Below are positions 9,456-20,396 of a stretch of 64,000 nucleotides of DNA, one piece after another. Position 1 is the first letter of the stretch, and each line of letters starts with the position of its first letter. The notes under the pieces are model-generated. The model was not told the DNA's origin, searched no databases, and saw only the letters and a list, made by a program, of their open reading frames with translations. A program made the translations under genes and the position numbers. The stretch lies in contig NZ_JAAALB010000004.1 in NCBI RefSeq assembly GCF_009905545.1, forward strand, positions 62,001-126,000. The letters are read 5' to 3'. Origin of the DNA: Cellulophaga sp. BC115SP. GTDB lineage: Bacteria; Bacteroidota; Bacteroidia; Cytophagales; Spirosomataceae.

Positions 9456-10979
9456 ATGAAAAGAACTTTTATCCTCACACTTACAAGCTTATCATTGTTA
9501 CTTTTAGGGCATAATACCCATGCTCAAAAGGTAACCAAACTCAGCGAAACCGATTTGATGCTTGCCAAAATGCAAGGAAAGATATATGGTTGGATGACCG
9601 AATGGCAAGTGCCAGGTTGCGCCATCAGTATCGTCAAAGATGGGCAAGTATTGTGGACAGCGGGTTTGGGACAAAAAAATACGACAACCAAACAGTTTGT
9701 TACTCCTCAAACCTTATTTCCGATCGCTTCTTGTAGCAAATCTTTTACCGCCGCAGCTATGGCAATCTTGGTAGATGAAGGGAAAGTAGATTGGAACAAA
9801 CCCGTCAAATATTATTTACCTGACTTTGAGCTAAGCGACGTAGATGCAGAGCATACAGTAATGGTAAAAGACTTACTTTCACATCGCACGGGTTTGCCGC
9901 GCCATGATTTTGTTTGGCTGTACAGTTCGCTCGACCGTCAGACGATTTACAAGAGTCTCAAATATCTCAAACTTAGCAAAAAACCTTACGAACAATATCA
10001 ATACAACAATTTGATGTATATGGTAGCTGGCGTTTTGATTGAAAGAGTAAGTGGGATGACTTGGGAAAAATTTGTGGAGGAGCGCCTTCTAAAGCCTCTC
10101 AAAATGAATCAAACGGTATTGACATATCCCGAATTATTCAAATCAATGGATTATTCGAAATCATATCGTAAACTAAATGACCAGCTTGCTGAAGCAGGTT
10201 TTGGGAGTAATGTGGATGCCATCGGACCAGCAGGAGCTGTAAAGTCTAATGCCGAGGATATGAGTCATTGGCTATTGATGCAGTTACAACAAGGTAAATA
10301 TGAGAACCAACAGATTGTTTCTAGTAAAAATTTAAAAGAAAATCATACTCCTTTAACGGTTGTGTATCCTGCCGAAGCCAAATACCCTGAATTAGGATTT
10401 AGTACTTATGGCATGGGCTGGAATCAAAATGTTTACAGAGGAGCTCAACGCCTTCAGCACAATGGCTCAATAGAAGGATATCGCTCTCAAATGACACTTT
10501 TTCCTAATAATAATATTGGCATATTTATTACAACCAATAGCAGTGCCGCCGACTACTACTTTGTTAATGTGGTCACAAACAGTCTTACAGATATGCTTTT
10601 TAATCTTCCTGAGATAGATTGGCATAGTCGTATGAAGCAAGAAAAAGCAGACGCTACCTTTGCTGAGGAAAAACGTGCGAAAGAACAAAATGCCAATCGA
10701 GTACTCTTTGCTTCGATGTCACATAACCTCGATAATTACGCAGGTATTTATGAACATCCAGCTTATGGAATCTTGCAAATTTACAAATCTGACAAAGGGC
10801 TTATGGCCAAATATCATAACCAAACTATAGAATTAGTACACTTTCATTATGATTATTTTTTAGGAAAAGATATGCTCGACAATATGCCAATTCAGTTTCT
10901 GACAAACTTCAAAGGAGCAATTGATCAAGTACAAATTGATTTCCCTAATGCAGGAATTATCCAGTTTTTGAAAAAGTAA
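9456..10979 (+). CDS. secreted serine hydrolase, beta-lactamase/class C family with C-terminal DUF3471-like domain
   Basis: A 507-residue protein with a cleavable Sec signal (hydrophobic residues 4-18, then HAQK). The beta-lactamase/esterase fold is recognised from the S-x-x-K nucleophile motif Ser92-C-S-Lys95, the Y-x-N motif Tyr183-N-Asn185 and the H-N-G-S-x-E-G-Y pattern in the C-terminal third of that domain, equivalent to the KTG/HxG box. About 110 further residues form a beta-rich tail of the DUF3471 type. Members of this family include esterases, DD-peptidases and D-amino-acid amidases; a drug-resistance role should not be assumed. It is monocistronic, flanked by long intergenic regions. 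Confidence 0.88.
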   Translation: MKRTFILTLTSLSLLLLGHNTHAQKVTKLSETDLMLAKMQGKIYGWMTEWQVPGCAISIVKDGQVLWTAGLGQKNTTTKQFVTPQTLFPIASCSKSFTAAAMAILVDEGKVDWNKPVKYYLPDFELSDVDAEHTVMVKDLLSHRTGLPRHDFVWLYSSLDRQTIYKSLKYLKLSKKPYEQYQYNNLMYMVAGVLIERVSGMTWEKFVEERLLKPLKMNQTVLTYPELFKSMDYSKSYRKLNDQLAEAGFGSNVDAIGPAGAVKSNAEDMSHWLLMQLQQGKYENQQIVSSKNLKENHTPLTVVYPAEAKYPELGFSTYGMGWNQNVYRGAQRLQHNGSIEGYRSQMTLFPNNNIGIFITTNSSAADYYFVNVVTNSLTDMLFNLPEIDWHSRMKQEKADATFAEEKRAKEQNANRVLFASMSHNLDNYAGIYEHPAYGILQIYKSDKGLMAKYHNQTIELVHFHYDYFLGKDMLDNMPIQFLTNFKGAIDQVQIDFPNAGIIQFLKK

Positions 10980-10997
10980 CATACAACTAAAAAACAA

Positions 10998-11013
10998 TAG
11001 CGAAATTTCGCTA
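10998..11013. promoter_or_regulatory. 16-bp perfect palindrome, upstream member of a pair
   Basis: TAGCGAAATTTCGCTA is perfectly self-complementary and sits 19 bases after the serine hydrolase stop codon. Its inner 14 bases recur exactly at 11241-11254, just before the ilv leader peptide. Two identical palindromes about 240 bases apart around a promoter suggest an operator pair, though no regulator is known from the sequence. Confidence 0.5.
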
Positions 11014-11187: not shown

Positions 11188-11219
11188 TTGCATTTAAAAA
11201 ATATACCTCTGTATATTTG
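11188..11219 (+). promoter_or_regulatory. promoter of the ilv leader/operon
   Basis: TTG at 11188-11190 is followed after 21 bases by TATATTTG (11212-11219), a good match to the Bacteroidota -33/-7 arrangement. A start near 11226 would give a transcript whose first reading frame is the leader peptide at 11263. The palindrome at 11241-11254 would lie in the early transcribed region. Confidence 0.7.
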
Positions 11220-11240
11220 TAAAGTACTAACAAAAACATC

Positions 11241-11254
11241 AGCGAAATTTCGCT
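11241..11254. promoter_or_regulatory. 14-bp perfect palindrome before the ilv leader peptide
   Basis: AGCGAAATTTCGCT, identical to the core of the palindrome at 10998-11013. It lies between the predicted transcription start and the leader peptide start codon, where a bound protein or a small RNA hairpin could affect transcription or leader translation. Confidence 0.5.
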
Positions 11255-11262
11255 AATTTTTT

Positions 11263-11325
11263 ATGAAAGTTTCTGGATTTGTAAATATCATTCTCGTTCT
11301 CGTGATTCTCTGCTGTGAAGTGTGA
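11263..11325 (+). CDS. ilv leader peptide (20 codons)
   Basis: ATG at 11263 opens a 20-codon frame reading MKVSGFVNIILVLVILCCEV and ending in TGA at 11323-11325. Eleven of the 20 residues are Val, Ile or Leu, including eight in a row (residues 9-16). The frame lies 44 bases after the promoter -7 box, ends inside the antiterminator 5' arm and is followed by a strong terminator before ilvD. Such composition and position are the hallmark of a branched-chain amino acid attenuator peptide. It is too short for usual gene callers. Confidence 0.85.
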   Translation: MKVSGFVNIILVLVILCCEV

Positions 11326-11350
11326 GACGGGCTTTTATGTATATAATTGA

Positions 11351-11383
11351 AAAGACCTTTCTCACACACTGAGAAAGGTCTTT
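11351..11383 (+). terminator. attenuator terminator upstream of ilvD
   Basis: A perfect 13-bp stem with a 7-base loop ends in four T residues, 26 bases after the leader peptide stop and 114 bases before ilvD. Its 5' arm is shared with the antiterminator. Confidence 0.85.
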
Positions 11384-11496
11384 TGCTGTCCAGAAATATC
11401 GAACTTAAAATAAGTCAAAAAATAGAAGAATAATACAAACCCTCTGACTCGTGTTTTCTATCCTGTCGGGCAGAGTCTAAAGCATCTTTTCAAGTT

Positions 11497-13173
11497 ATGG
11501 AACTGAACAAATTCTCAAAAACACTGACTCAAGAAGTAACCAACCCTGCAGCCAAAGCCATGCTTTATGGAATTGGTCTTACTAGCGAAGATATGCAAAA
11601 AGCACAAATCGGTATTGCTAGTACAGGTTATGAAGGAAACACATGTAATATGCACCTCAATGGTCTTTCGGTACATGTGAAAAAAGGTGTTCAAGAGAAT
11701 GGCATGGTAGGCTTGATTTTCCATACGATTGGTGTATCAGATGGTATGACCAACGGTAACAACGGGATGTCATACTCATTGCCATCACGTGATTTGATTG
11801 CTGATTCGATCGAAAACGTAGTAGGTGCTCAATGGTATGATGGCGTGATTGCGGTAGTTGGTTGTGACAAAAACATGCCAGGGGCTATGATGGCATTGGC
11901 TCGTTTGAACCGCCCGGGTATGTTGGTGTATGGTGGTACAATTCGTACTGGTGAGTATAAAGGACAAAAATTAGATATTGTCTCGGCATTCGAGGCATTG
12001 GGTAAAAAATTCGCAGGAAATATATCTGACGAAGATTATGAAGGAGTTATCCGTAACGCTATTCCGGGTGCAGGTGCTTGTGGTGGTATGTACACTGCTA
12101 ACACTATGGCATCGTCGATGGAAGCGATGGGCTTAACATTACCAAACTCGTCTTCATATCCAGCTACTCACGAAGGTAAAAAAGCTGAGTGTTTGGCTAT
12201 TGGAGCAGCAATGAAAAACTTGTTGGAGCAAAATATTTGCCCAAGAGACATCATGACTCGTAAGGCTTTCGAAAACGCCCTTACTATGGTAATGGCTATG
12301 GGTGGTTCGACAAACGCTGTATTGCACTATTTGGCAATTGCTCGCGCTGCTGAAGTTGAATTTACGTTAAAAGATATTCAAGCTATTTCTGACCGTACTC
12401 CATTAATTGCTGATTTGAAGCCTTCTGGTAAATATTACATGGAAGATATGCTTTCAATCGGCGGGGTACCAGCATTGATGAAATACTTGTTGAAAGAAGG
12501 ATATTTACATGGTGATTGTATGACTGTAACAGGCAAGACAATTGCTGAAAACTTGGCTGATGTTCCTGAATTGGATTTCGATTCACAAAAAATCATTTTG
12601 CCATTAACGAGCCCAATCAAACCAACAGGTCACTTACAAGTATTGTATGGTAACTTAGCAACAGGCGGTGCTGTAGCAAAAATCACAGGTAAAGAAGGGG
12701 AACGTTTTGAGGGTATTGCAAAGGTTTGTGAGCGTGAAGAAGAGGTAATTGAATACTTATCAAAAGGCGAAATCAAAGAAGGACAAGTAGTAGTAATCCG
12801 TAACGAAGGTCCTAAAGGTGGTCCGGGTATGCCAGAAATGTTGAAACCAACATCGGCTATTATGGGTGCTGGCTTAGGTAACAAAGTAGCCATGATTACA
12901 GACGGTCGTTTCTCAGGTGGTACACACGGATTCGTGGTAGGCCACGTAACACCAGAAGCACAGGTAGGTGGCAATATCGCTTTGGTAAAAGATGGCGATT
13001 TGATTACGATCGATGCAGTTAATAATGTTCTTCACTTACACGTATCTGACGAAGAATTGGCAGAACGCCGTAAAGACTGGGCTCCATCTGAATCACCATT
13101 CAAACAAGGTGTTTTACGCAAATATGTGAAAAACGTAGCCTCAGCAAGTGAGGGTTGTGTAACGGATTTGTAA
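11497..13173 (+). CDS. ilvD: dihydroxy-acid dehydratase
   Basis: Converts 2,3-dihydroxy-3-methylbutanoate and 2,3-dihydroxy-3-methylpentanoate to the keto acids of valine and isoleucine (third common step). The 558-residue length is normal. Three iron-sulfur ligand cysteines are in their expected contexts: Cys50 (EGNTCNMH), Cys123 (VGCDKNMPG) and Cys195 ([12 protein letters not shown]). The C-terminal Ser/Gly motif GRFSGGTHG is also present. It is the first structural gene after the attenuator and starts at ATG 11497. In this cluster a membrane protein gene lies between it and ilvB, which is unusual. Confidence 0.97.
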
Positions 13174-13588: not shown

Positions 13589-14899
13589 ATGCTTTTAAAT
13601 TCTGTTTTAAAAAATTACACTTACATAGCCTTAATTAGTTTTATAGGTCTCTTACTTTATGTTTTTGCGAATGTTCCAAATATACCTACTGCTGACGAAT
13701 GGGATTTATCTTATTTTGTTGAAAGGTTTTATGAGAATAAATTGACGATGTCCGATTTAATGATACCTCATAACGAGTGTAGAATGCCTTATCCACATAT
13801 CATCAATTTAATTATTTTATTTATTACTAGGTGGCATTCGTTTACATTGATTTCGTTCAATTTGGTTTTATTGTTTGTTTTCTATTTTACATTAAGAGAA
13901 TATACTTATGAATCTTTGAAGCCTAAAAATATAAACTCATTCGGAGCAGGCTTTTTATTCATATTGTTGGTGATATTTTCATTTAAGCAATATGAAAATA
14001 TTGTATTAAGTTTTGACTTAAACTACTATCTATCAGTGATTGCAGGTTTATTCTCATTTATTAGTTTAAAGAAAATTTCGTGGAAAAGTGTAATCATAAG
14101 TATTGTGTGGGCACACATATCGATGTATTCATATGCTTCAGGGTTCGCTATATGGCCATTTTTAATACTTTTAGTTTGGCTTATTAGTGATGAAAATTAT
14201 AAGGCTAAAATGTATTACTCTACAATGATAATGCTGTTCTTTATGTTGAATATAGGACTTTATTTTTATGAATATCACCCTCTTTCGAGTAAGACCATTG
14301 AAAAGTCCGTCAATCCTATGGAGTTAGTTCCTTACGCCTTTGCTTTTTTGTCAAATAATTTTACAACAAGTAGTAATACAGCTATTCTGCTTTCTATTCT
14401 TCAATTAGTGTCAATTGGAATATCCATTGGACTCTTATTAAAAAATAATAAAGCAAAACTGTTAAATATGGCTCCAATTTTTCTATATGGCTTTTGGGCT
14501 ATGGCTGTTGGATTTATGGTAGCACATGGAAGAGCTTCACTAGGAATAACCCAAGCTTTATCTCCTAGATATTGTACATTGAGCTTTCCTTTTACCATAG
14601 TTTCTATATTGTCATTGGTGATTAATATTGACAATATAGGTTATTTAACGAGCAATAAGATTATTCAGAAATATATTTCAGTACCATTGTATATGTTTTT
14701 AGTTCTTTTCGGAATGTATCAAGTAAAATTTATTAGTCTAGCGAATCAAAGGAATTCTAAATTAGAAGATGCATTAGCATGTATTAAAGCCTCAAATTTT
14801 GAATCTCCAGTAGTAAAAGAAATGCTTTACCCCAATTCTGAATTGCTTAGACAAAAAGTAGAGTTGATGAAGAAATATCATTTGAGTATGTATCGATAA
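13589..14899 (+). CDS. polytopic membrane protein, GT-C-like, unknown function
   Basis: A 436-residue integral membrane protein with roughly ten hydrophobic helices. The first helix is followed by an extracytoplasmic loop with ADEWD (residues 35-39) and, after an acidic stretch, IPHNECR (59-65). The acidic DEWD-type motif after TM1 plus a downstream N-E-x-R motif is the layout of GT-C glycosyltransferase-like proteins, but I cannot place it in a named family. The DNA is clearly more AT-rich than the ilv genes around it and uses many A/T-ending codons, suggesting acquisition. It is in the same direction as ilvD and ilvB, with gaps of 415 and 106 bases. A role in branched-chain amino acid synthesis is unlikely. 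Confidence 0.72.
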   Translation: MLLNSVLKNYTYIALISFIGLLLYVFANVPNIPTADEWDLSYFVERFYENKLTMSDLMIPHNECRMPYPHIINLIILFITRWHSFTLISFNLVLLFVFYFTLREYTYESLKPKNINSFGAGFLFILLVIFSFKQYENIVLSFDLNYYLSVIAGLFSFISLKKISWKSVIISIVWAHISMYSYASGFAIWPFLILLVWLISDENYKAKMYYSTMIMLFFMLNIGLYFYEYHPLSSKTIEKSVNPMELVPYAFAFLSNNFTTSSNTAILLSILQLVSIGISIGLLLKNNKAKLLNMAPIFLYGFWAMAVGFMVAHGRASLGITQALSPRYCTLSFPFTIVSILSLVINIDNIGYLTSNKIIQKYISVPLYMFLVLFGMYQVKFISLANQRNSKLEDALACIKASNFESPVVKEMLYPNSELLRQKVELMKKYHLSMYR

Positions 14900-15005: not shown

Positions 15006-16751
15006 ATGGCAGCACAGACACAAACCATGACCGCAGAGCCCAAAGCAAAAGAAACAGAACAGTTTCTTACGGGCGCACAGGCCATAATGCAATCTTTAGT
15101 CGAGCAAGGTGTTGATACAATCTTCGGCTATCCGGGTGGCGCCATCATGCCTACTTATGATGCGCTTTATGATTATCAAGATAGACTCAAGCACATTCTG
15201 GTGCGCCATGAGCAAGGAGCAGGTCATGCAGCACAAGGTTACGCTCGTATGACAAACCGTGCAGGAGTAGCAATGGTGACTTCTGGGCCTGGAGCTACCA
15301 ACCTCATGACTCCTATTGCCGATGCCATGCTAGACTCTACCCCGATGGTTTGTATTGTGGGGCAAGTAAAAGGTAATTTGCTAGGTACTGATGCTTTCCA
15401 AGAATGTGATATCATCGGAATTTCAATGCCTATTACTAAATGGAATTATCAAGTAGTAGATGCTGATGAAATTCCTGAAATTATTGCAAAAGCATTTCAT
15501 ATTGCAGAAGCTGGTCGTCCAGGTCCTGTATTGATTGATATTACTCGTACAGCACAAACTGATAAAATGACGAAACCTTTCCACTACCCTAAAGAAGTGG
15601 ATATTATTAGTTATCGTCCTCGTACTGTGCCCAAACAAGAGCATGTTGAAGCCGCTGCTAAATTAATCAACGCTGCTAAGAAGCCATATATCTTGGCGGG
15701 TCACGGTGTGTTGTTGGCTGATGCGCAAAATGAACTAAAAGAATTTATTGAAAAAACTGGTATCCCTGTAGCAACAACGTTGTTGGGTATGTCGGCAGTT
15801 GATGCTGATCACCCTTTATATGTAGGCTGGCCAGGTATGCACGGTAACTACGGTGCAAACGTATTAACTAATGAATGTGATGTGCTTATCGCTATTGGTA
15901 TGCGTTTCGACGACCGTATTACAGGTGATTTGAGTACTTATGCTAAACAAGCTAAAGTAATTCATATCGAAATTGACCCTGCTGAAATCAATAAAAACGT
16001 ATTTGCTGACGCACCAGTTGTTGGTGATGCTAAAGAAGCATTAAAGGCGTTGATTCCTTTAGTAAAACAAAACTCATTCCCAGAATGGCGCGCAGAGTTT
16101 GCTAAATACGATGCTATCGAATACGAAAAAATCACAAAGAAAGATATTTTCCACGACGGCGACCAAATCAAAATGGGCGAAGCTGTTGTAATGCTTTCTG
16201 AGAAAACAAAAGGTGAGGCCGTGACGGTTACCGACGTTGGTCAGCACCAAATGATTTCGAATCGTTATTATCGTTTCAAAAAGCCATTCTCAAGTGTAAC
16301 TTCAGGTGGTGCAGGAACAATGGGCTTTGCACTTCCAGCGGCCTTTGGTGCTAAAGTTGGTGCTCCTGATCGTGAAGTAGTGGCAATCATTGGTGATGGC
16401 GGTTTCCAAATGACTCTCCAAGAATTAGGAACAATTGCTCAGAGTGGCTTGCCTGTAAAAATCATCATTCTTAATAATAACTTCCTTGGGATGGTACGCC
16501 AGTGGCAACAGTTATTCTTCGACAGACGCTATTCATTCGTAGAATTACAAAACCCTGACTTCATCACGATTGCAAAAGGATTTGGTATTGCAGGACACAC
16601 GGTTTCTGATCGTGCGCTACTTTCAGAGTCACTAGATACTTTGCTTAATTCTGACAAGCCTTATTTGTTGGAAATTATCTGTGAAAAAGAAGAAAACGTG
16701 TTCCCAATGGTACCAGCAGGTACATGTGTTACTAACGTGATTTTAGAATAG
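15006..16751 (+). CDS. ilvB: acetolactate synthase large (catalytic) subunit
   Basis: Thiamin-diphosphate enzyme making acetolactate and acetohydroxybutyrate, the first common step of valine and isoleucine synthesis. At 581 residues it has normal length. The catalytic Glu69 is in VRHEQGAGHAAQGYAR. The C-terminal TPP/metal motif begins GDGGFQ around residue 462 and ends in NNN about 30 residues later. FAD-domain sequences such as VGWPGMHG are also present. The ATG at 15006 follows a small UUCG-loop hairpin (AACTC-TTCG-GAGTT, 14968-14981). The regulatory subunit gene follows after 179 bases, a rather long gap for this pair. Confidence 0.97.
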   Translation: MAAQTQTMTAEPKAKETEQFLTGAQAIMQSLVEQGVDTIFGYPGGAIMPTYDALYDYQDRLKHILVRHEQGAGHAAQGYARMTNRAGVAMVTSGPGATNLMTPIADAMLDSTPMVCIVGQVKGNLLGTDAFQECDIIGISMPITKWNYQVVDADEIPEIIAKAFHIAEAGRPGPVLIDITRTAQTDKMTKPFHYPKEVDIISYRPRTVPKQEHVEAAAKLINAAKKPYILAGHGVLLADAQNELKEFIEKTGIPVATTLLGMSAVDADHPLYVGWPGMHGNYGANVLTNECDVLIAIGMRFDDRITGDLSTYAKQAKVIHIEIDPAEINKNVFADAPVVGDAKEALKALIPLVKQNSFPEWRAEFAKYDAIEYEKITKKDIFHDGDQIKMGEAVVMLSEKTKGEAVTVTDVGQHQMISNRYYRFKKPFSSVTSGGAGTMGFALPAAFGAKVGAPDREVVAIIGDGGFQMTLQELGTIAQSGLPVKIIILNNNFLGMVRQWQQLFFDRRYSFVELQNPDFITIAKGFGIAGHTVSDRALLSESLDTLLNSDKPYLLEIICEKEENVFPMVPAGTCVTNVILE

Positions 16752-16930: not shown

Positions 16931-17464
16931 ATGAAAACAACATACACGTTATCCATATTTACTTCCAATACCATCGGTTTACTCAATCGTATTACGATTA
17001 TTTTTACTCGTAGACGTTTGAACATCGAATCGTTGACCGTATGTGAAACCGAGCGCGTAGGTGTATCTCGTTTTACTATCGTTATCCGTCACGATTCTCG
17101 CGAAGCTGTTGAAAAACTCGTTCGTCAAATCCGTAAGGTAGTCGATGTATTAGCGGTATTTGGATACCTTGATCACGAAATCGTTTTTAACGAAATCGCC
17201 CTTTTCAAAATTGCAACACCACTTGGAGGAACACCTTTGAATATCAAAGAAATCAACCTCGACTGGAATGCAAAAGTGGTGCATTGGGGACTTGATTATG
17301 TAGTAATCGAGAAAAATGGTACCGAACAGGAAATCTCAGAATTTTATGAGTATATCAAAAACTGGGAAATTCTTGAGTACTTAAAATCAGGCCGCGTAGC
17401 TGTTGGTAAAACAGAAAAAGGCTTGGTAGAATACCTTCCTGAAGGCAACTGGGAAGTCGTATAA
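16931..17464 (+). CDS. ilvN: acetolactate synthase small (regulatory) subunit
   Basis: ACT-domain regulatory subunit that activates IlvB and confers valine feedback inhibition. The 177-residue protein opens with the conserved ACT start TYTLSIFTSNTIGLLNRI and the RRRLNIESLTVCETE strand (residues about 27-41), followed by a C-terminal domain ending EYLPEGNWEVV. Length fits the IlvN/IlvH family, whose members range from about 80 to 180 residues. It lies between ilvB and ilvC on the same strand. Promoters or regulatory features in the 116-base gap to ilvC are not evident. Confidence 0.95.
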   Translation: MKTTYTLSIFTSNTIGLLNRITIIFTRRRLNIESLTVCETERVGVSRFTIVIRHDSREAVEKLVRQIRKVVDVLAVFGYLDHEIVFNEIALFKIATPLGGTPLNIKEINLDWNAKVVHWGLDYVVIEKNGTEQEISEFYEYIKNWEILEYLKSGRVAVGKTEKGLVEYLPEGNWEVV

Positions 17465-17580: not shown

Positions 17581-18624
17581 ATGGCACAAATTAATTTTGG
17601 CGGAGTGGTAGAGGATATCGTGACTCGTGAGGAGTTCCCATTAGAAAAAGCAAGAGAAGTATTGGCTAATGAAACTATCGCTGTAATTGGATACGGTGTA
17701 CAAGGTCCTGGTCAAGCTTTGAACATGAAAGATAACGGCTTGAACGTAATCGTTGGTCAACGTAAAGGTAAAACTTATGACAAAGCTGTAGCTGACGGTT
17801 GGGTTCCAGGCGAAACTTTGTTCGAAATCGAAGAAGCTTTAGAAAAAGGTACTATCATTTGCTACTTGCTTTCAGATGCTGCTCAAATCGAATTGTGGCC
17901 AACTGTTAAGAAATATTTGACTGCTGGAAAATCATTGTATTTCTCTCACGGATTCGGTATCACTTACAAAGAGAAAACTGGTATCGTTCCTCCTGCAGAT
18001 GTTGACGTATTCTTGGCAGCTCCTAAAGGTTCAGGTACTTCTCTTCGTCGTTTGTTCGTAGAAGGTAAAGGTTTGAACTCTTCTTTCGCTGTTTACCAAG
18101 ACGCTACTGGTAAAGCTCGTGAGAAATGTATCGCTATGGCTATCGGTGTAGGTTCTGGTTATTTGTTCGAAACAGACTTCTACAAAGAAGTAACTTCTGA
18201 CTTAACTGGTGAACGTGGTACTTTGATGGGTGCTATCCAAGGTATTTTCGCTGCTCAATACGAAGTATTGCGTGAAAACGGTCACTCTCCATCTGAAGCA
18301 TTCAACGAAACAGTTGAAGAATTAACTCAATCGTTGATGCCATTAGTAGCTGAAAACGGTATGGACTGGATGTACGCTAACTGCTCTACAACAGCGCAAC
18401 GTGGTGCTTTGGACTGGTGGAGACCATTCAAAGAAGCTACTAAGCCTGTATTCGCTCAATTGTACAACTCTGTGAAAACTCAAGCTGAAGCTGAGCGTTC
18501 TATCACTTTGAACTCTCAACCTGACTACCGCGTGAAGTTGGAAGCTGAATTAGAAGAGCTTCGTGACTCAGAAATGTGGAAAGCTGGTGCTGCTGTACGT
18601 AGCCTTCGTCCAGAAAGAAGCTAG
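17581..18624 (+). CDS. ilvC: ketol-acid reductoisomerase (NADP+)
   Basis: Catalyses the Mg2+-dependent alkyl migration and NADPH reduction of acetohydroxy acids, second common step. The 347-residue size indicates a class I (short) enzyme. The Rossmann motif is IAVIGYGVQGPGQALNMKD (residues about 34-52), with QRKG supplying the cofactor-phosphate-binding loop. Metal-ligand regions such as DLTGERGTLMGAIQG and NETVEELTQ are present. Codons are strongly biased to a preferred set (GGT, GCT, GAA), in line with high expression. A hairpin after the gene (18716-18755) probably ends the transcript. Confidence 0.96.
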   Translation: MAQINFGGVVEDIVTREEFPLEKAREVLANETIAVIGYGVQGPGQALNMKDNGLNVIVGQRKGKTYDKAVADGWVPGETLFEIEEALEKGTIICYLLSDAAQIELWPTVKKYLTAGKSLYFSHGFGITYKEKTGIVPPADVDVFLAAPKGSGTSLRRLFVEGKGLNSSFAVYQDATGKAREKCIAMAIGVGSGYLFETDFYKEVTSDLTGERGTLMGAIQGIFAAQYEVLRENGHSPSEAFNETVEELTQSLMPLVAENGMDWMYANCSTTAQRGALDWWRPFKEATKPVFAQLYNSVKTQAEAERSITLNSQPDYRVKLEAELEELRDSEMWKAGAAVRSLRPERS

Positions 18625-19133: not shown

Positions 19134-20396
19134 ATGAATACACAAACAGCACAATTTCCTTCGCTCGAAAGCATCTATGATGCGGCAGAATGCCTCCGTG
19201 GAGTGGCATATCATACGCCTTTGATGGAAAACCTTATTTTGTCAGAACGTTATGAGGCTAATATTTTCCTAAAGCGTGAAGACCTTCAGATTGTGCGTTC
19301 TTACAAAATTCGTGGAGCTTACAACAAAATGTCTAAACTCTCAAAAGAGGCACTCGACAAAGGCGTTGTATGTGCAAGTGCGGGTAATCATGCTCAAGGT
19401 ATGGCTTATGCTTGCCATAAAATGAAGGTGAAGGGTACGGTTTTTATGCCTACAACAACACCAAATCAAAAGATTAAATCCGTAAAAATGTTTGGTCGTG
19501 AGCATATCGATATTCAGTTGGTTGGCGACACCTATGACGATGCTTCAAATGCAGCCAAAATATATTGTGAAGAACAAAATGCGACTTATGTGCATCCATT
19601 CGATGATATGGACGTAATTGCAGGACAAGGGACTGTTGGTTTGGAGATTTTTAAGGATGCCGATGTCAAAATAGATTATATCCTTTTGGCTATTGGTGGA
19701 GGTGGTGTTGCGGCTGGCACATCTACGGTATTTAAACAACTTTCTCCACATACCAAAATCATTGGGATTGAGCCACAAGGGGCACCATCTATGAAAGCAA
19801 GTATCAATGCTGGGCATGTGGTAGAATTGGAAACGATCGACAAATTTGTGGATGGAGCTGCTGTAAAACGTGTAGGTGACAAAACCTTCGAAATCTGTAA
19901 GCAAACCCTTGATGATATTATTGAGGTTCCTGAAGGAAAGGTGTGTACCACTATTTTAGAGTTATATAACGAATCTGCGATTGTGGCCGAGCCTGCTGGT
20001 GCATTAACGATTGCTGCTTTGGATTTTTTAAAAGAAGAAATAAAAGGTAAAAATGTAGTATGCTTGGTGTCGGGAGGCAACAATGATATTACTCGTACCG
20101 AAGAAATAAAAGAGCGTTCTTTACTTTACGAAGGATTGAAGCATTACTTTATCATTCGTTTTCCGCAACGTGCTGGAGCTTTGAAAAATTTCCTCAATAA
20201 TGTATTAGGCGAAAACGATGATATTACCCATTTTGAATACCAAAAGAAAACCAACCGTGAGTTGGGACCAGTATTGCTAGGTATCGAACTAAAATACAGA
20301 GAGGATTTTGAACCTCTTCTAACTCGTATGGAAGAAAATAAAATCCAGTATCAACTGCTCAATGAAAAACCTGATTTGTTTACATTTTTAATTTAA
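19134..20396 (+). CDS. ilvA: threonine ammonia-lyase (threonine deaminase), biosynthetic
   Basis: PLP enzyme converting threonine to 2-oxobutanoate, the committed step to isoleucine. The PLP lysine is Lys58 in SYKIRGAYNK. The glycine-rich phosphate-binding loop GGGGVAAG and the Ser motif VSGGNNDI are present. The 420-residue length and the C-terminal ACT-like segment (RFPQRAGALKNFLNN onward) indicate the allosteric biosynthetic form with one regulatory domain. Its position after ilvC completes the isoleucine/valine set; leuABCD are not in this window. Confidence 0.95.
   Translation: MNTQTAQFPSLESIYDAAECLRGVAYHTPLMENLILSERYEANIFLKREDLQIVRSYKIRGAYNKMSKLSKEALDKGVVCASAGNHAQGMAYACHKMKVKGTVFMPTTTPNQKIKSVKMFGREHIDIQLVGDTYDDASNAAKIYCEEQNATYVHPFDDMDVIAGQGTVGLEIFKDADVKIDYILLAIGGGGVAAGTSTVFKQLSPHTKIIGIEPQGAPSMKASINAGHVVELETIDKFVDGAAVKRVGDKTFEICKQTLDDIIEVPEGKVCTTILELYNESAIVAEPAGALTIAALDFLKEEIKGKNVVCLVSGGNNDITRTEEIKERSLLYEGLKHYFIIRFPQRAGALKNFLNNVLGENDDITHFEYQKKTNRELGPVLLGIELKYREDFEPLLTRMEENKIQYQLLNEKPDLFTFLI

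Follow-up and report, generated by a model that had tools for sequence, protein, structure and literature searches.

Organization of the ilvD leader region

The window (the entire 64,000-nucleotide stretch of Cellulophaga sp. BC115SP DNA analyzed here) carries on its forward strand a cluster of branched-chain amino acid synthesis genes, opened by ilvD (dihydroxy-acid dehydratase, the first putatively regulated gene; 11497-13173; TIGR00110, above cut-off) and continued by ilvB (acetolactate synthase large subunit; 15006-16751), ilvH (acetolactate synthase small subunit; 16931-17464), ilvC (ketol-acid reductoisomerase; 17581-18624), and ilvA (threonine ammonia-lyase; 19134-20396), the latter four named by NCBIfam. 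A 436-amino-acid open reading frame (ORF) with 29% GC and no Pfam or NCBIfam match lies between ilvD and ilvB (13589-14899). Besides its own locus, it was matched in two of the ten loci compared, L003 (65% identity) and L009 (38%), and it was not found in L004, L005, L010, and L012, where ilvB starts within 1,500 nucleotides (nt) of ilvD; judged from these sequences, it looks like an insertion into the ilv cluster.

Upstream of ilvD, direct reading confirmed the 20-codon ORF of the original prediction, MKVSGFVNIILVLVILCCEV, on the forward strand at 11263-11325 (ATG at 11263, stop codon TGA at 11323-11325), in which 11 of 20 codons specify Ile, Leu, or Val and eight of these stand in an unbroken row, IILVLVIL (codons 9 to 16, 11287-11310). 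The sequence TTG-N21-TATATTTG, likewise present as predicted on the same strand at 11188-11219 (TTG at 11188-11190, TATATTTG at 11212-11219), ends 44 nt before the leader ATG; we take it to be a promoter of the Bacteroidota type, and its TTTG portion was found again 5' of the leaders displayed from relatives. When short ORFs of 8 to 45 codons were scanned throughout the window, with 900 and 853 stop positions on the two strands, the leader was the only one of the 1,753 stops with an Ile/Leu/Val run longer than six, and among the ORFs flagged for residue runs it alone was followed by a hairpin of at least 11 bp. Moreover, the RNA from 11227 to 11400 folded at -50.3 kcal/mol, compared with -31.2 kcal/mol (standard deviation, 3.8) for 200 shuffles (z = -5.0).

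Two mutually exclusive pairings downstream of the leader

The terminator hairpin is a perfect 15-bp stem on the forward strand, formed by region 3 (11350-11364) and region 4 (11370-11384) around a loop at 11365-11369, and its 3' end lies 112 nt 5' of ilvD. The hairpin had been predicted as 13 bp at 11351-11383; its existence stood, but its length had to be revised. The U-tract is short in the window, as region 4 ends in UCUUUU, located within the stem and followed by GCUG. Region 2 (11320-11336), assigned by duplex folding and covariation as the 5' arm of the antiterminator, holds the leader stop codon and pairs with 11350-11367, i.e., region 3 plus the start of the loop, at a duplex energy of -21.0 kcal/mol versus -19.6 kcal/mol for the terminator hairpin. 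The complementarity originally noticed between GTGTGAGA (11320-11327), with the stop codon inside it, and TCTCACAC (11360-11367) is located where it had been placed, and the pairing can be extended past those 8 bp.

The leader, antiterminator, and terminator of the Escherichia coli-type scheme held. Its "pause" hairpin between regions 1 and 2 was not evident in the window, where 111 of 200 shuffles were equally good; certain clades do show such a hairpin spanning the stop codon, which in 20 of 63 loci was equaled by no more than 10 of 200 shuffles. Rfam returned no match at gathering score in the entire window, and at a relaxed threshold eight matches between 11150 and 11500, all of them sub-threshold and of unrelated families.

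Conservation and covariation in Spirosomataceae

An ilvD match was obtained in 191 of 200 family genomes, and the regions upstream of 110 ilvD loci (30 + 80 loci) were examined, two of which were shortened by contig ends to 544 and 19 nt. A strict detector (ATG leader, Ile/Leu/Val run of at least five, stem of at least 11 bp, spacing of 10 to 40 nt) was positive in 38 of the 110 regions, compared with none of the 110 reverse strands and none of 2,200 dinucleotide shuffles. When other residue sets were used in the detector, six unrelated ones gave 0 positives, and four containing I and L gave 8, 9, 38, and 41. A loose detector was positive in 49 regions and gave no match in the other 61; three of the 49 (L037, L089, and L095) look spurious and were omitted from later counts, and alignment and folding further excluded L009, L025, and L065 (second hairpin, tandem module, TTG start), leaving 43 loci with 41 distinct rows. 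The leaders differ in sequence (e.g., MKVSGFVNIILVLVILCCEV, MFSNSVNIVVVLILLF, MFNIILVVVVVIISTQMV, and MKSIIVLIVPIILLLI), while their Ile/Leu/Val runs and position are retained.

Across the 41 distinct loci, the antiterminator duplex averaged -18.7 kcal/mol, versus -8.3 kcal/mol with region 2 shuffled; it was equaled by no more than 3 of 300 shuffles in 35 of the loci and by 4 to 43 of 300 in the other six. The terminator arm is clade specific (CCUUUCUCACAC, CCUCACUCACACC, and CCUUCUUCAC), and both of its pairing partners vary along with it: at position 4 from the first C of CCU, for example, regions 2, 3, and 4 mostly read A-U-A, U-A-U, and G-C-G in three clades, the duplex partner having been picked by energy, which biases the comparison toward pairing. 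When four clades were tabulated against each other, the own-clade region 3 was the best partner of region 2 in all four rows, clearly so in two and by just 1.0 and 0.1 kcal/mol in the other two. Double changes were found at 6 of the 12 consensus terminator pairs. Because the sequences are related, none of these locus counts represents independent events.

Leader-terminator modules occur in tandem 5' of ilvD in L013 and L025, i.e., in 2 of the 10 Runella-group loci examined (of 12). Tandem modules were also seen in another record, L151 (Runella sp.), the only locus in which the upstream module was scored; its antiterminator is weaker there, with 14 of 300 shuffles as good.

Ribosome position and control codons

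The front edge of the ribosome was taken to lie 15 nt past the first base of the P-site codon. With this value, the RNA left free, through region 3 and the loop, was folded for each stall position. In the window, stalls on codons 1 to 7 of the run gave -19.5 to -19.3 kcal/mol and on its last Leu -15.6 kcal/mol, so that most or all of the antiterminator arm is free at any control codon; stalls after the run gave -10.9 (Cys), -4.3 (Cys), -3.3 (Glu), and -0.2 kcal/mol (Val), and the stop codon in the A site also gave -0.2 kcal/mol. Over the 43 loci, the means were -16.9 kcal/mol on Ile/Leu/Val codons versus -2.3 kcal/mol at the stop. In every one of the 43, a ribosome at the stop weakened the antiterminator stage by 5 kcal/mol or more, a result that arises in part because the stop codon sits at region 2.

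Codon differences, counted among same-length pairs within clades, comprised 315 changes at Ile/Leu/Val codons, namely 105 synonymous, 137 within Ile/Leu/Val, and 73 to another residue. The corresponding fractions of 0.33, 0.43, and 0.23, versus 0.30, 0.23, and 0.47 when single bases are changed at random, may indicate selection on the residue class, a result that is only indicative because the pairs share history. The three signs of conservation to which the original prediction had pointed were found in the relatives: the Ile/Leu/Val composition of leaders before ilvD is kept according to the family detectors, the ribosome-edge folding shows the stop codon kept in place with respect to the antiterminator arm, and compensating changes are present in both competing stems.

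Occurrence at other genes and across Bacteroidota

A second attenuator of the same build was located 5' of leuA in the same genome (C141:55560-55674; leader MENNSTNKFFIIIKLLAD). It lies beyond the window, 17.7 kb farther upstream on this contig, and is common to three of four other congeners. A covariance model built from the 41 rows was searched over 291 genomes of the order. At E ≤ 0.01 it had matches in 116 of them, a figure that certainly includes false ones and overstates the true cases because some weaker matches show neither a leader nor a branched-chain gene. The best 30 loci all precede a branched-chain amino acid gene, most of these being named from the N terminus: four are ilvD loci of clades represented in the model, and the other 26 comprise 12 ilvD, 10 ilvE, and 4 leuA loci. 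Five of the best loci were compared with NCBIfam, which identified L117 and L120 as ilvE and L127 as leuA and returned nothing at E ≤ 1e-80 for L131 and L141. Of 20 weaker matches, 11 precede ilvD, ilvE, ilvB, or leuA (two of the 11 being ilvB), two (L263 and L267) have an Ile/Leu/Val leader but a different next ORF, and seven have neither an Ile/Leu/Val leader nor a branched-chain gene. Antisense matches of the model at the same hairpin were put down to hairpin symmetry.

Among 80 named ilvD loci sampled across Bacteroidota, a candidate leader was present in 22, in 21 of them within the distance limits, and 14 passed the leader, duplex, and geometry tests, compared with 0 of 80 on the reverse strand. 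The passing loci include records of Flavobacterium, Lutibacter, Meridianimaribacter, Aurantibacter, Segetibacter, Sediminibacterium, and Saprospiraceae; in two of the 14 (L190 and L207), strong structure persists even with the ribosome at the stop codon. The 66 loci that did not pass include other Flavobacterium records, and seven of the 21 candidates failed (L151, L161, L169, L172, L178, L208, and L230), four of which are Flavobacterium records. A passing ilv leader was seen in L218, a metagenome-assembled genome record entitled Ignavibacteriae bacterium, a title outside the usual Bacteroidota classes, which has two candidate leaders.

Paired palindromes and a candidate RamB-like regulator

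The ilvD promoter lies between two copies of a 14-bp palindrome, AGCGAAATTTCGCT: the proximal one (candidate operator 1, 11241-11254) lies between the promoter and the leader ATG, and the distal one (candidate operator 2, 10999-11012) is an exact copy, 242 bp apart in all five genus genomes compared. In all 13 loci with a long-range pair of this kind, which come from four genera, the spacing was 238 to 242 bp, and one pair keeps it through 12-nt gains and losses that offset each other in the alignment; in four further loci, the second site is 17 bp away. Such regular spacing in sequence suggests a looping operator pair.

With at most one mismatch, the palindrome was present in 81 of the 110 family ilvD regions, including lineages without a detected attenuator such as Spirosoma, where it mostly stands 37 to 58 nt before ilvD. 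A search of eight genomes for the exact pattern AGCGAAWWTTCGCT gave a single site, at ilvD, in four genomes (L271, L275, L276, and L277), five sites in two congeners, two sites in one genome, neither of them at ilvD, and none in the remaining genome. Elsewhere in the genus, copies of the palindrome occupy the interval separating a malate synthase (A) gene from a divergently oriented gene of the XRE family whose product has an IrrE-like domain; copies also lie close to a GAPDH-like gene, identified by reading, and 5' of an SCP2-domain gene. In the genome studied here, the XRE-family regulator gene with the palindrome in its promoter is on the reverse strand of contig C35 (L231, 2-1456); its product contains Pfam domains HTH_3 and Peptidase_M78, and of 10 families it matched RamB (NF038139) best, at 47 bits over residues 13 to 327, a score that does not reach the NCBIfam equivalog cut-off of 700 bits.

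The regulator gene was present in all 81 genomes with the ilvD site and absent from 24 of the 29 without it, one of these 29 site-less regions being only 19 nt long, and the joint absences fall in few genera (g12, g30, and g20). The site was found in the regulator's own promoter at 15 of the best-matching 30 regulator loci, compared with 0 of 30 control stretches. This co-occurrence is a lead on a candidate operator, not proof of binding. In addition, a GCGAAWWTTCGC palindrome was seen by eye upstream of the leuA attenuators L251 to L253 and L255, from Runella-group genomes and one g32 genome; therefore, the site may belong to a larger regulon of branched-chain genes.

Proposed mechanism and alternative explanations

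On the strength of these comparisons, the ilvD-led cluster is very probably preceded by a ribosome-mediated (classical) transcription attenuator, and the comparative tests on relatives back the classical reading of leader and terminator that was originally proposed. Sequence and its comparison among relatives show the leader ORF with its run of codons, the two pairings that exclude each other and evolve together, and the geometry, and the course of events may be pictured as follows. Transcription would begin near 11225, and the 20-codon leader would be translated. With charged Ile-, Leu-, and Val-tRNAs available, the ribosome would reach the TGA in region 2 (11320-11336) and mask that region, so that region 3 (11350-11364) would pair with region 4 (11370-11384) and RNA polymerase would halt before ilvD. 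When any of Ile, Leu, or Val is scarce, the ribosome would wait on IILVLVIL and leave region 2 free; region 2 would then pair with region 3 ahead of the synthesis of region 4, and RNA polymerase would continue into ilvD. We infer the start site, leader translation, termination at 11384, the amino acid response, and read-through as far as ilvA from this arrangement.

Simpler readings of the same segment fit the evidence poorly. The hairpin, which does stand between two same-strand genes, might simply terminate the upstream gene (9456-10979) at its 3' end, the short ORF being there by chance, but a promoter-like site and the leader intervene between the stop codon of that gene (10979) and the hairpin (11350-11384), leader and pairing recur in other genera, and none of the other short-ORF stops among the 1,753 in the window has such a leader, making this explanation highly improbable. 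A leader with a terminator before ilvD would suit a metabolite riboswitch or T-box that uses the terminator as its expression platform, with the ORF incidental, and weak riboswitch candidates have been proposed elsewhere, before ilvD (Veillonella) and ilvB (Leptospira) (PMC8632094). Against this, Rfam gave no match at gathering score in the window and only sub-threshold ones in the region, and what is conserved is Ile/Leu/Val coding together with two pairings; a riboswitch or T-box is accordingly hardly to be expected here. The conserved residue class, and the fact that short peptides rich in Ile, Leu, and Val could be membrane associated, would also be compatible with the peptide acting as a small protein in its own right and not as a dispensable leader. 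Yet the peptides differ widely in length, ends, and residue order (compare MFNIILVVVVVIISTQMV with MKSIIVLIVPIILLLI), and what is kept is the class of codon and its placement with respect to the RNA pairing, so a functional protein has very little probability. All three explanations were rejected on these grounds.

A weightier alternative places control chiefly at initiation, through the RamB-like XRE/IrrE-domain regulator acting on the AGCGAAWWTTCGCT palindromes, with the attenuator secondary. The site's presence in 81 of 110 regions, Spirosoma and other lineages without a detected attenuator included, the regulator gene in 81 of 81 site genomes and its lack in 24 of 29 others, the site before the regulator gene in 15 of the best 30 loci (controls, 0 of 30), and the 238- to 242-bp spacing in 13 of 13 long-range pairs all favor it. 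However, it leaves the leader, antiterminator, and terminator unexplained, the joint absences are clustered in g12, g30, and g20, and of the genomes searched for the exact pattern one is siteless and another has its two sites away from ilvD; judged from these sequence patterns, initiation as the chief level of control is possible but rather doubtful. The attenuator and the palindromes may also be parts of one system, and we tentatively consider, at slightly less than an even chance, that ilvD control in Spirosomataceae has two layers, a RamB-like regulator looping the DNA and a modular attenuator. The XRE/IrrE-domain regulator would bind the palindromes paired at 238 to 242 bp (about 23 helical turns) in several genera, and looping around the promoter would tie branched-chain synthesis to the state of the glyoxylate shunt (malate synthase). 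The modular attenuator would sense charged Ile, Leu, and Val tRNA; some genera have it, certain Runella-group genomes carry it in tandem, and none was detected in Spirosoma.

Implications and comparison with known systems

Translation initiation in Bacteroidota occurs mostly without Shine-Dalgarno sequences. If the attenuators function as proposed, they imply tight transcription-translation coupling in this phylum, and a phylum-wide classical attenuator would offer ready test sites for such coupling. The device also flags leader genes that fall under gene-caller limits. Lopatovskaya et al. reportedly treated attenuation by comparative genomics in 2010, and an earlier prediction there is possible; among the matches listed, mostly titles and abstracts, no ilvD leader in Bacteroidota was noticed, and little was found in print on the control of branched-chain amino acid synthesis in this phylum.

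Within Bacteroidota, the closest precedent in the records consulted is Flavobacterium psychrophilum, for which strong clues for leader-peptide attenuation before amino acid operons were reported in 2021 (PMC9723704). As in our case, attenuation was proposed there for 5' transcribed regions in the same phylum; unlike our case, the organism belongs to another Bacteroidota class, and the part of the report consulted names neither an ilv leader nor details of the mechanism (PMC9723704). Leader-like small ORFs have also been described in B. thetaiotaomicron, according to the portion of the record consulted (PMC7366714). Outside the phylum, an attenuator or a conserved upstream ORF has been described, in the parts of the reports consulted, for Corynebacterium ilvBNC (PMC10272879, PMC11857589). 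That system resembles the present one by description only, in having an upstream ORF or competing hairpins that control ilv genes, and differs in phylum and first gene. In Staphylococcus aureus and Listeria, ilvD-led branched-chain synthesis genes are subject to leader-peptide attenuation. The reports on ilv attenuation in these Firmicutes (PMC5794164, PMC5864092), as far as consulted, allow a likeness by description only, with the difference that the genes there are under CodY control.

The attenuators of the same pathway in E. coli precede ilvGMEDA and ilvBN. They differ from the ilvD leader described here in that ilvD comes first in our cluster, a palindrome stands before the leader ATG, the leader has no Rfam match, and the 1:2 hairpin is not evident in the window; they share with it an Ile/Leu/Val leader peptide, an antiterminator competing with a terminator, and a stop codon close to the arm of the antiterminator. 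Attenuators of this class are already known; the one at the ilvD locus has no Rfam family. As far as sequence comparison can carry it, this assignment to the classical class is well supported, ordinary in kind and with a reach wider than the original prediction could see.
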